A DNA stretch of 64,000 nt from Lineus longissimus (taxonomy: Eukaryota > Nemertea > Pilidiophora > Heteronemertea > Lineidae), in the NCBI RefSeq assembly GCF_910592395.1, contig NC_088308.1, positions 6,897,001 through 6,961,000 of the forward strand. The letters are read 5' to 3'. How positions within the stretch are numbered: position 1 is the first letter of the stretch; every line of letters starts with the position of its first letter. Below, piece after piece: positions 1,259 to 7,184 of the stretch. The position numbers and the translations under genes are program-made. A model generated the notes under the pieces. It was not told the origin of the DNA and did not search any database. It saw only the letters and a list, made by a program, of their open reading frames with translations.

Positions 1259-1398
1259 TGCTGTTGTCCATATGTTCATTGCTGTGCGATCCAAATCCTG
1301 ATGACCCACTTGTGCCGGAAATAGCACGACTCTACAAGATAGACAGAGGGAAATATGTTACAATGGCTAAGGATTGGACGAATAAATATGCTGTCTAA
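1259..1398 (+). CDS. UBE2D (family): UBE2D-type ubiquitin-conjugating enzyme, terminal exon copy 1
   Basis: This is the last coding exon of a class I E2 of the UBE2D/UbcH5/effete family, which passes ubiquitin from E1 to RING or HECT ligases in cytosol and nucleus. After the acceptor TTTCAG the exon starts with the last two bases of a Val codon (phase 1), so it covers residues 102-147 in human UBE2D2 numbering. It encodes [20 protein letters not shown], keeping the Asp117 and Leu119 equivalents near the catalytic pocket. The C-terminal helix follows: [14 protein letters not shown], then [11 protein letters not shown] and a TAA stop. It is the only copy ending in Val rather than Met, and the one most diverged from the other two. 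The upstream exons are outside the window. Family assignment is secure; which paralogue it is cannot be told from this exon. Confidence 0.87.
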
Positions 1399-3589
1399 GA
1401 AAGACTGCGAGATCAAACGAAAGTGTTTCATCGTGACAAAATGAACTAAAGTATAGAACTTTGTCACTAAATTCAAGTTGACCTTTTCAAAACATCATCA
1501 GCCAGTCAGGGATTATGCTTTAGTTCATATTCACGAGCAGAAAATGACTGCAGTGTGCAGCTAAGCATGTAACAGTTGTATCTAGACAAAACAAAGAAAA
1601 TTTGAAATGATTTATAGTCATTAAGATAGTTAGGTATTGATACTTGAGTCTGAAAACGAATTCATGACTCACTTTTAATATCGAGAAAGTAAATTGTATG
1701 AATTTTCCACATTGTTTTTGTTGCTTTATCTGTATTTAGTATTAGGAAAAGCCAGGGTGTTCAAATGCTTTCTTGCCAGATAACCTTTTCAATCCATTAG
1801 CATTGATATTATTAATTGATTAATGAAAGCTTTTTTTACGACCAAGCTAGACTATTAAAGTGTAATTTCACTATAACGCTCTTTCCAGCTTTTTCAAGTA
1901 TTTGAGATGAACACACAATCGGGAAAGGTGCCATGATATATGCCACGAGACATGGGTACATGTAATAATGACTATGACTACAAATATGACTATTGACTAT
2001 GAGAAAAATAGTCAAGTTCGCCTACCAAAAGATTTCGCGCAAGATCATGGGTCACGTCGGAGACATCATGGTCATTGTGTCTCAACGTCAGCCATGAGGG
2101 CCGGCTTCTGTTCCACTGGGTGTGGAATTGGTATCACTATCAGTCTGGTTGTGTGTTCTTGGTTAAAAGACTTGAATGATTAATTCTGTATACATGCATG
2201 TCTGTTATTACACAGATAGACTCTTTTGTTGGAATAATAAATCACTTGTTCTGTCCCATTATTTGCGTTTTGTTTTTTGTTTGTTCTTTCATGCAGATAA
2301 CTCTTACTGTACTTAACTCAAATTCTACTTCCACTCATTCTCTTGGTGTCGGCTATAAAATCAACGACAGTTGATGTAGAAATTCCCCGCCATTATTTTA
2401 CCCTGCAGCACAACTTTTGCTCTAAAGTAGAACTTATTTCAGCACATAAGTTCTTTTTCTGCTATTGGCAGAATAGCTGCCTCATGCTTGTAGATTTATG
2501 AAATATAGTCCTGTTACTATATGTATCGGTAAAATAATGGCCGCGCGTGGAGTCATGTTACCTAAATGGGTGCTTTAAAAAGTCGATGAAAATGTGAAAA
2601 TACCTGTGTGTCCTATTCGGCAATCTCATCCCTGAGAAAAATGCCAGTTGGGCCAAAACATGCGAATCAAAAGCCAGGGAAAGCACTGCACAATAAAGTC
2701 TTTCAAAAGTAGCATTGCTTAAATCATCTTGCCAAGGTCAGTGATTCAACTCAAAGGCAGAGAAACTGATATTTTTAAAAACATCGCAAGGGTTGCTGTT
2801 GGTGATGTTTGGATTTTCAACGCTGTCTCCCGACTATTTCTGGACTATTGCATGTAAGTAATTTCAGCTAATATCTCATCTGTAACTATTAATAAAATTG
2901 ATAATAGAGTTGATAAAAGTATGGCCTAGTCATTTAAATTTCATTAGCACATAGCCAGGATATTATCCATTGGCACTGTACTCTTCAAATTTGCTGCAAC
3001 TAAATAGGTGTTGCTAAAGGATCGTGTACTTTTGATATCTCCCATGAATTTGACAGTTGCCTAATTTCTGCCACATGTTCTGAAGATCAATACTTTTTCC
3101 TCCCACTTTCCTTGGTCTCATAACCTGGAAACAAAAGGTTTTGATTGTGGCAGAAATTTGGTCCACAAAAAATTGTGAGTTGTTCAAAATCAAAAGTGTT
3201 TTTTTTTTTACTTGGTCCTAGCCTACTACCGTTTCTAATTTTTATTTAATACATATCATTGGCAGGTGGACTTTCTCTTCATGAAAAACCTTCTAAAATC
3301 TAATTCTTTAAATTCAGTTTGTGTGGTTTGATAATCCTTTTTCCCCATAAAAACTGTATGTTTGATCTTAACACAGTGATTCCAAGATCCAAAATATGCA
3401 TGATGCGTTGTCATAAATCATTCTGTGTACAATGTGTCATTTAAAAATGATCTCTTACAGGGAAAGTTCACACTGCTGTTAGATTTCAGACTTCATAATG
3501 ACCAATAGTCCATGATTTTAATTTTCAGATTTTGATTGTCACTTGCCAGAGTCCCCACACCATGTCAGTTTCACTACTTTTCCTTTCAG
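1399..3589 (+). other. Copy-1 3' UTR and spacer to copy 2
   Basis: No further coding exon is seen. An AATAAA at 2236-2241 could end a transcript that uses copy 1. From 3372 to about 3412 the sequence resembles 6836-6872, at nearly the same distance (218 versus 209 nt) upstream of copies 2 and 3. This indicates that intron sequence was duplicated together with the exon. Confidence 0.45.
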
Positions 3590-3729
3590 TGCTGTTGTCC
3601 ATATGTTCATTGCTGTGTGATCCAAATCCCGATGACCCACTCGTGCCGGATATAGCCAGAATATACAAGTCAGACAGAGTTAGATACAAAAGTTCCGCTG
3701 AAGAATGGACCAGAAAATACGCAATGTGA
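3590..3729 (+). CDS. UBE2D (family): UBE2D-type ubiquitin-conjugating enzyme, terminal exon copy 2
   Basis: This is the second complete version of the same terminal exon, after a good acceptor (CTTTTCCTTTCAG). It starts at the same split Val codon and ends at TGA. The protein is identical to copy 1 through [13 protein letters not shown], with synonymous base changes. The helix then diverges: [20 protein letters not shown], then TRKYAM. The Pro-Glu of copies 1 and 3 is Pro-Asp here, and the helix has lost a Met/Ile-type core residue (SSAEE against IARE in human UBE2D2). Copies 2 and 3 share 3' UTR sequence (AAGACTGTTTTATA just past each stop), so they come from the more recent duplication. It can only be used instead of, not together with, copies 1 and 3. 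Confidence 0.86.
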
Positions 3730-4338
3730 AGAAAACTGAAAACTGAAGAAGTGCATAAGACTGTTTTATATGATGATGAAATGAATTTGAGGGGTCGCTT
3801 TCCAATTAAAACCAAAACAGTAAATTTGACAATCTTTCGACCAAACTTGTCTGCGTGATAAAAACCCTCAGAACATGCAAACTTCCTCATCATCCAGTAC
3901 TGTAATCTGGTTAATTCTGGTGAACATCATAGAAATATAAAAGTCAAAAGATTACCCCTGGGCCTTGCATAATTTTAAGCCAGATGAAGATCTTGTTCCT
4001 CTTACGATTGATATATTTTCCTTGACAGCTTTATTTTCCTGTGTGCTGCTGTCCTTATTTCTTTGATATCTGCCCATACCAAAAGGCTCACATTGTAGTT
4101 TTAATGGGTAATCAGTGATAATATGTACCGGTATGTATCTTGCTACATTCACATTGATGGGAATGTGTGTACTTGTTTTGTTGAAGGGAAAGGGACACGG
4201 CCACTTGAGACATGAGATGTACCTCATTGACATCCTGTGTCCTACATTGTCGTAATAGATTGTCATACTTCAGTGTGGTTCTTTCATTTTATCCTTGGGC
4301 CACACTTATTTCATTTGTTGGATTACAGATTTTTGCAT

Positions 4339-5288: not shown

Positions 5289-5334
5289 GGTAAATCTTTT
5301 CAAACCAGGCGAGACTTGTTTATGAGTTGGTTCT

Positions 5335-5445
5335 CAGGTTTGTATTAACTGCAATATTTAAAGCACTTTCATTCCCCAGCCTAATCCAGAAACATTCCTG
5401 TAGAAACCAAGCTTCCCAGTGTTTCATTTTGGAGGAATTGTTGAT
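5335..5445 (-). mobile_element. SINE-like fragment (3' part)
   Basis: Read on the minus strand it contains GTTTCTGGATTAGGCTGGGG followed by AATGAAAGTGC. This matches the corresponding segment of the better preserved copies at 7910-8110 (minus) and 18060-18330 (plus). The tRNA-like head is not recognisable. It is probably an old, truncated insertion. Confidence 0.4.
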
Positions 5446-7044
5446 GAGAAAATCTTCGACCATCCGAAAAATTAGATTTATCCCAGTTTGTGTTTTTGTT
5501 GGCGAGGCAACTTTGGGCACCAACCAATAACAAGTTGGGCCTATGTACCAGTACATGCTCACACAAGTAGGTCAACATCTGAGATTTGGCTTGCGATACT
5601 TTTTCCCCGTCTAAACACAGCAAAGGTTTGTCATGTAATGTATGGAGCTTCAAATCGTTGGCTGACCAAATTCACGAAAATATTTTCTGAGACCTCAATG
5701 TCTTTTAAAATAACAACAATGTATCTAAACTTGCTTTCTCACTTCTTATTGCTAATCATTAGCTTAATATTTAATTATTTGTAACATTAAACGGTTTATT
5801 TATTGTGCATTGAATAAGAAGTATGACCATGTGGTGACGAGAAGACATTTTGAAAGGCACTTCATTTCAAAATCCATATACATGTATGGTCATCTAGCTC
5901 AAACATTTTCTTCTTCACACTGAAGTCTGTCTGTACATGTCTGCAGGTAAACTCTTTCCGTTGATAATACACTAGTCCAACCTGAATAAGGTATTTTCTT
6001 ATTTATTTTGAAAATTATACCCCTGGTCAGCTCAGCCTCCGGTAGCCCTTGTTTCTTTCGTTGGCTCTTGACACATCCTCTACTGGACCAATGCGAGAAA
6101 GAGCTAATTTCTTCCCCAATATCAGCTGAAATAGCTGGCCTGACTGTTGCAGTTCTAATGGATGGATTGCAAAACCTATTGCCCCTCCAGTTAATGAACT
6201 ATCCAGGGGGGAGTAGGATATTTGGTGTGAACTAATTGGCCATGGTTATCCAGGATGTTATGATTCTGTGTGCAGAATACCGATGCATGTTGTGTGTGGT
6301 GTGGATCCTATTACATGGGATTGGCTTTCTGGATCAGTCTATTGATGCCAACACAACAACCAGTGAGTGGCCCAATTAAAATGAAAATGATTCAGATGTA
6401 CACTGTACTGTTGTCCTGTACTTTGATCATGTTGATTGTTATAGTTGACTGACTGAGTCAAGTTCAGGCTTATTCAGATTAACTTGTAAGTATTTTGTTC
6501 ATGCACAATTCCTGACCTATTTGGATTGTGCGATTGTTTTGAAATTGTCAACTGGGCCTGTTCTGTTGGAACAAAGCCAAAAAAGTACTGAAAGCTGAGA
6601 AATATTTGTGGCTAAACTTTGTGGTTTTGTGTAATTTCATATCTTCTTGGAGCTTTCAGTTAAGCTTTTTTGACAACTCCAGGACAATAATTTCAGTTAA
6701 AATTTAGATTTTCTATCTAGCACCCATCGATATATTTTCGCGATTATCTGTAAATGCATCCATTTTAATAAAAGGCGCACAAATATTTCCAGGTTAACAG
6801 TAATCTTAATCTAATGCATTTTCAAGTGAAGAAACCAGTGATTCTGAAATCCGAAATGTGCATGGTTGCTCTCTTCGACTCACTCTGGACTACTGCTCAC
6901 AGGACGTCTGTCGTAAAGGAATATCAGATCGAGGTATAAACTGAAAAATCGGTAAACCTATCATGGGGAGATAAATGTCTTGTCAATGTCATTTGTTTGT
7001 AAAAATAGATACTTCAGACTAATGTTTTTTTCTTATCCTTTCAG

Positions 7045-7184
7045 TGCTGTTGTCCATATGTTCTTTGCTGTGTGATCCAAATCCCGATGACCCACTCGTG
7101 CCAGAAATAGCCAGAATGTACAAGACTGACCGAACTAAATATAAATCGATGGCTAAAGAATGGACCAATAAGTATGCCATGTGA
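7045..7184 (+). CDS. UBE2D (family): UBE2D-type ubiquitin-conjugating enzyme, terminal exon copy 3
   Basis: This is the third version of the terminal exon, after the acceptor TTATCCTTTCAG. It has the same phase-1 start and ends at TGA. The core [20 protein letters not shown] is unchanged, and the helix is [20 protein letters not shown] followed by NKYAM. Of the three copies it is closest to vertebrate UBE2D (IARIYKTDR, then EKYNRIAREWTQKYAM), so it may be the default exon. The 3' UTR begins with sequence shared with copy 2. AATAAA at 8186-8191 is a possible poly(A) signal, although it lies beyond a SINE insertion. Confidence 0.86.

Follow-up and report, generated by a model that had tools for sequence, protein, structure and literature searches.

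A stretch of 64,000 nucleotides from the nemertean Lineus longissimus (NCBI RefSeq assembly GCF_910592395.1, contig NC_088308.1, positions 6,897,001 to 6,961,000 of the forward strand), called the window below and numbered from its first base, contains three tandem copies of the terminal exon of a UBE2D-type ubiquitin-conjugating enzyme (E2). UBE2D proteins rank with the most conserved E2s and with those in widest use, and their diversity is usually credited to gene paralogues. Here, a single UBE2D gene would carry three tandem alternative terminal exons, the choice among which would be steered by competing long-range RNA pairing, a reading to which we assign a probability of roughly 0.6. It is based on the exon copies themselves, on the constraint acting on them, and on one intronic element that is complementary to two others, each located upstream of an exon copy. 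The exon copies are the following:

1259..1398, forward strand: terminal exon copy 1, from the second base of V102 to the stop codon TAA; Pfam UQ_con match with E = 2.8e-6; 35/45 identity with the tail of human UBE2D2
3590..3729, forward strand: terminal exon copy 2, stop codon TGA; UQ_con match with E = 2e-7; 36/45 identity with the tail of human UBE2D2
7045..7184, forward strand: terminal exon copy 3, stop codon TGA; UQ_con match with E = 2.2e-8; 38/45 identity with the tail of human UBE2D2

Each copy comprises 140 nt including its stop codon, encodes residues 102-147 in an open frame and starts at codon position 2 of V102, directly after a pyrimidine-rich acceptor ending in TTTCAG. Equal length, equal phase, an acceptor and a stop codon of their own mark the three as tandem duplicates that would serve as alternative terminal exons. 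Aligned without gaps over 157 nt of DNA, copy 1 shares 76 % and copy 3 shares 84 % of the bases with copy 2. All three encode the C-terminal part of the UBC fold with a UBE2D-type sequence; in addition to the UQ_con matches, copies 1 and 3, the two covered by the comparison with PDB sequences, match UBE2D chains. Copy 3 is the nearest of the three to the human UBE2D2 tail. The first-pass annotation had described the same exons, with their shared phase, acceptor type, open frames and individual stops, and these were found at the positions given above. The extent that it gave to the feature (1259-7184) is right for the exons and too short at its start, since the docking element described below begins at 619. 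No additional exon copy was found in the window using tblastn, which very short exons could escape.

The acceptors were ranked with a home-made score that is descriptive only, and of which the AG-free zone was shortened and the weights were changed between versions. In the first version, copies 1, 2, and 3 ranked 16, 555, and 6 among 3762 AGs, the low rank of copy 2 resulting from a penalised AG in the distal part of its tract. In the revised version, the acceptors of copies 1, 2, and 3 are outscored by 1, 10, and 1 AGs, respectively.

Residues 102-121 are identical in the three copies, with silent differences at codons 108, 111, 115, 119, and 121, as had been noted for the first 20 or so residues in the first-pass annotation. 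Residue 122 is E, D, and E in copies 1, 2, and 3. Replacements affect 12 of the 46 codons, 1 of the 24 for residues 102-125 and 11 of the 22 for residues 126-147 (Fisher p = 0.0005), and the earlier statement that they are concentrated in the C-terminal helix is thus borne out. The ratio of nonsynonymous to synonymous divergence (dN/dS, NG86 method) over the whole exon is 0.190/0.691 (approximately 0.28) for copies 1 and 2, 0.106/0.939 (approximately 0.11) for copies 1 and 3, and 0.142/0.386 (approximately 0.37) for copies 2 and 3. None of these values is near 1, in agreement with the purifying selection that had been proposed. Differences at codon positions 1, 2, and 3, summed over the three pairs, number 20, 15, and 47. 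In the last 22 codons, dN amounts to 0.23-0.41 and dS is saturated or undefined, for which a ratio is not given; as synonymous change has reached saturation in the latter half of the exon, positive selection cannot be claimed. When projected onto an ideal helix, the nine varied positions within residues 131-147 lean to one face (p = 0.0029 in a first run). Upon repeating this with 20,000 random draws, 56 were equally extreme for residues 131-147; the clustering varies with the range chosen (230/20,000 for residues 131-145, 60/20,000 for 130-147, and 6/20,000 for 126-147).

The 5' half of the exon was also examined for gene conversion and for constraint at the RNA level. The signal is suggestive only, as it depends on the cut, of which two were tried: silent changes in codons for invariant residues occur in 2/13 at residues 102-114 versus 11/20 later (p = 0.03), and in 7/23 versus 6/10 when the cut is made after residue 125 (p = 0.14).

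The second line of evidence comes from the introns. A comparison of the introns on opposite strands revealed three elements that are related by complementarity:

619..655, forward strand: docking element D, within the intron that precedes copy 1; complementary to S2 and S3
3373..3402, forward strand: selector-like element S2, 217 to 188 nt 5' of copy 2; duplex with D of -39.8 kcal/mol
6836..6871, forward strand: selector-like element S3, 209 to 174 nt 5' of copy 3; duplex with D of -51.9 kcal/mol

D can form 27 Watson-Crick pairs and 1 G-U pair with S2, with 2 mismatches over 30 positions (626-655 with 3373-3402), and 30 Watson-Crick pairs and 4 G-U pairs with S3, with 2 mismatches over 36 positions (619-654 with 6836-6871). 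The ungapped complementarity scores 26.2 for S2 and 30.7 for S3, as compared to maxima of 18.9 and 18.5 among shuffles, and none of 500 dinucleotide shuffles reached either value. When the forward strand was scanned in windows of 45 nt, S3 (-53.5 kcal/mol) and S2 (-44.1 kcal/mol) came out as the two best partners of D; the next one reaches -25.9 kcal/mol in the first 12 kb and -25.4 kcal/mol in the other 52 kb. On the reverse strand, which is not part of the same RNA, the best site for D besides its own complement has a value of -30.3 kcal/mol. The co-folding gain of S3 is -41.1, that of the best of 50 control pieces -23.5. Using blastn, the element is placed three times in the 64 kb, as D, S2, and S3 only, all of them in these introns. 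D is one intronic site with complementarity to two others, each of which lies beside a variable exon. Rfam, searched at its gathering thresholds, returned no matches.

Upstream of D, a perfect 15-bp inverted repeat is present at 340-398 on the forward strand (340-354 with 384-398), and the segment 330-410 folds at -21.9 kcal/mol. This repeat may shape the docking region or may be unrelated to it.

S2 and S3 start at similar distances 5' of their exons (217 and 209 nt) and are identical at 24 of 29 positions (blastn E 0.001). The introns of copies 2 and 3 flanking these elements align at the level of shuffled background (0.61 vs 0.64 and 0.61 vs 0.61), and the S2/S3 element is the only kept intronic block of which the edges match the complementarity to D. 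These sequence comparisons make it probable that the three elements are more than a repeat. S2 and S3 represent one pairing that has been duplicated, as in the duplicated-stem-arm model described in PMC6071210.

In the proposed mechanism, all three exons would be spliced and the RNA would pair in the cell. D, which would lie after the last shared exon, would be competed for by S2 and S3, as it could not pair fully with both. Pairing of D with S2 would loop out approximately 2.8 kb including copy 1 and bring the acceptor of copy 2 to 0.19 kb past the stem. Pairing with S3 would loop out approximately 6.3 kb including copies 1 and 2, with the acceptor of copy 3 at 0.17 kb past the stem. With either pairing, the acceptor of the chosen copy would be nearer along the paired RNA than that of copy 1, and the longer of the two pairings belongs to the farther exon, copy 3. 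When D is unpaired, the acceptor of copy 1, 0.6 kb past D, would be the first one met and would be used. Copy 1 is treated as the default ending because it lacks a detectable selector. As each copy has its own stop codon, each choice would end the protein. The three resulting mRNAs would specify E2s with the same catalysis, the same binding of ubiquitin-activating enzyme (E1) and ubiquitin ligase (E3), and the same backside, with most of their differences on a single face of the last helix.

With respect to the protein, helix 1, two loops, and the beta-meander precede residue 102 in the UBE2D numbering, and would thus belong to the shared part. E1 and E3 are bound by helix 1 and two loops of the E2, backside partners bind on the beta-meander, and D117 orients the incoming lysine (PMC5095918). 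D117 and L119 are located in the exchanged exon and are invariant in the three copies. With the E1/E3 and backside sites in the shared part and D117 unchanged, the isoforms should have catalysis and the canonical contacts with E3 and backside partners in common. Differences would be possible on the outer side of the last helix and could affect a partner surface, stability, or turnover. Of the interpretation offered in the first-pass annotation, purifying selection, a common catalytic part, and a divergent helix all stand; the suggestion of an altered E3 choice or altered backside interactions is weakened, since the binding sites reported in PMC5095918 would fall, by the UBE2D numbering, in the shared part. 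A more far-reaching proposal, which we hold tentatively and at slightly under even odds, is that of a three-way RNA-structure switch on a core E2, in which terminal exons swap one face of the last helix while catalysis is kept, yielding isoforms that differ in partners or turnover.

A search for relatives confirmed none of 228 candidate stretches in viral contigs and 2 of 42 in genome contigs. The first of the two, L001, is a contig of 4.1 kb filed under a metagenome-assembled genome of a pond Verrucomicrobiaceae. At 2100-2690, it holds a UBE2D gene of eukaryotic type whose introns are very short, a sign that the Verrucomicrobiaceae bin may be contaminated with eukaryotic DNA. The last intron of this gene (36 nt, GC...AG in our own reading) splits V102 after its first base, as in L. 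longissimus. On this one comparison with a distant eukaryote, the alternative exons probably begin at an intron position that is old in UBE2D genes. Of the 12 positions that vary among the exon copies, 7 differ between the L001 protein and human UBE2D2; as an alternative to new function, these positions may simply tolerate change. The second relative, at 9704-10135 of a Pseudomonas huaxiensis contig (L002), is an intronless UBE2D-like protein with 65 % identity to human UBE2D2 over 144 residues and with Thr at the position of the catalytic Cys85.

Several observations weigh against a UBE2D gene with three endings chosen by RNA pairing. The UBE2D body exons were not found in the 64-kb window: an exon for residues 1-101, which include the catalytic Cys85, was not detected on either strand by tblastn, which very short exons could escape, the best E values beyond the three copies being at least 0.69 with the whole protein and at least 0.044 with pieces of 40 residues. 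Since copy 1 starts 1.26 kb into the window and no body exon follows in the 64 kb, the common exons would be located upstream of base 1. In longer contexts, S2 is separated less clearly from other sites (-54.7 vs -50.6 for the next unrelated site), and its co-folding gain of -27.4 compares with -23.5 for the best of the 50 control pieces. Because S2 and S3 are duplicates, the evidence from one pairing is not independent of that from the other; the identity of S2 and S3 is only 2.3 standard deviations above that of shuffles of such a short piece. D shows 5 G-U pairs and 4 mismatches with both partners together, too few to judge covariation. The full dock/selector scheme has a selector for every variable exon; as none was found for copy 1, the arrangement is described as a variant of that scheme and not as a full member. 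Finally, the element is not the sole kept flank, as two blocks 3' of copies 2 and 3 persist as well:

3746..3770, forward strand: block 3' of copy 2, 22/25 shared with 7195-7219; a relic or a conserved piece of 3' untranslated region
7195..7219, forward strand: block 3' of copy 3, partner of 3746-3770
4014..4052, forward strand: second collinear block 3' of copy 2, shared with 7566-7603 (79 % over 39 columns)
7566..7603, forward strand: second collinear block 3' of copy 3, partner of 4014-4052

A candidate selector for copy 1 (windows starting at 1041 and 1051), with -43.4 kcal/mol in extended context, was rejected because 105 of 6321 windows in the 64 kb were equal or better. The best ungapped matches before copy 1 are 15/29 to S2, reached by 74 of 93 control pieces, and 19/36 to S3, reached by 18 of 93.

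The most serious rival, itself unlikely, is that the three terminal exons are all used and are chosen by polyadenylation, splicing factors, or acceptor strength, with D, S2, and S3 being inert relics of an intronic stem carried along by the duplication. Terminal exons are often selected at the level of 3'-end processing (PMC3228551). The sequence AATAAA is present 3' of each copy, yet it is common in this AT-rich DNA. The lack of a selector for copy 1 also fits such relics, but the intron has decayed to background on either side of the element, the sequence and pairing of which have been retained. Less probable again is that a single copy, most likely copy 3 as the most canonical one, is spliced to the body and that the others are decaying by-products of duplication. 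Many duplicated exons die, as is generally known, and copies 1 and 2 are farther from human UBE2D2 than copy 3 (35/45 and 36/45 vs 38/45); three open exons with intact acceptors, a run of 20 unchanged residues of which five codons differ silently, and an exon-wide dN well under dS are difficult to reconcile with decay. It is quite improbable that D, S2, and S3 derive from a small transposable element present in both orientations: the window does contain dispersed repeats in both orientations, one of them (5111-5278) between copies 2 and 3, but exactly three copies of the element exist in 64 kb, one before each exon, and the S2 and S3 distances match. An assembly artefact, in which diverged alleles were assembled as false tandem copies of the kind known from heterozygous animal genomes, can be dismissed for practical purposes, as the copies differ from one another at 23 to 32 of their 138 coding bases and the intron segments are not alignable above background.

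A number of other features are present in the window. The dispersed repeat mentioned above is approximately 170 nt long and occurs, in both orientations, at 5111-5278 (within the intron that separates copies 2 and 3), 10911-11094, 14768-14936, 29268-29434, 48650-48785, and 49129-49301. Tandem protein repeats of approximately 63 residues (KTAWSCGTVIVEVNDVTYQFSES...) are encoded at 11556-12690 on the reverse strand and gave no Pfam match above the cut-off. Exons of a Kelch-like gene lie at 15427-18798 on the reverse strand, with Kelch repeats in five open reading frames (ORFs) at 15427-17568 and a BACK domain at 18457-18798; a BTB domain was matched in one of the 70 scanned ORFs of the window and was not placed. 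Over 35981-42475 on the forward strand, long ORFs encode Ser/Pro-rich repeats (RNSPIPKAASP...) and coiled-coil segments, the product of which we would guess to be possibly cytospin-like. One of the 70 ORFs gave a weak calponin-homology match (E 2e-4), which was not placed either.

Among the matches listed in a search of the open-licence literature (CC0, CC BY, CC BY-SA), no description of tandem terminal exons of a UBE2D gene was found, nor one of homologous last exons of vertebrate UBE2D3, which the first-pass annotation had mentioned. UBE2 genes are also absent from the main text of a survey of tandem duplicated exon substitutions (PMC9741552). If the three-ending UBE2D gene with its RNA switch is real, dock/selector control would gain a ubiquitin enzyme among its targets, as well as terminal exons encoding part of a catalytic domain, with a first exon lacking a selector serving as default. 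If one gene yields three versions chosen by RNA structure, E2 identity would be a splicing decision. The locus would then be a compact three-exon case in which duplication of an intronic stem arm leads to mutually exclusive exons.

Control by docking and selector sequences is known from insect Dscam1, 14-3-3zeta, Mhc, and MRP1 (PMC6071210), and competing RNA structures also occur in human ATE1 (PMC11802352). In its predicted layout, with a single docking site following the last shared exon and complementary elements ahead of variable exons, the locus resembles the exon 6 cluster of insect Dscam1 (PMC6071210, PMC11802352). Unlike Dscam1, with its 48 internal exons of a receptor, it has three terminal coding exons of an E2, no selector was found for its first exon, and its pairing is predicted from sequence. 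Competing RNA structures have also been reported for the 3' variable regions of Drosophila PGRP-LC, CG42235, and pip (PMC9013439), which are alike in having alternative 3' regions and differ in the genes concerned. Swaps of the C terminus make up 77 of 236 tandem-exon events in human, and three tandem 3' exons are found in each of TPM1, lev-11, and Tm1 (PMC9741552); as in these tropomyosin-type cases, homologous last exons would here exchange the C terminus. With the UBE2D/UBC4-5 E2s the locus shares the sequence of the tail, and with one distant eukaryote, L001, the position of the intron at V102.

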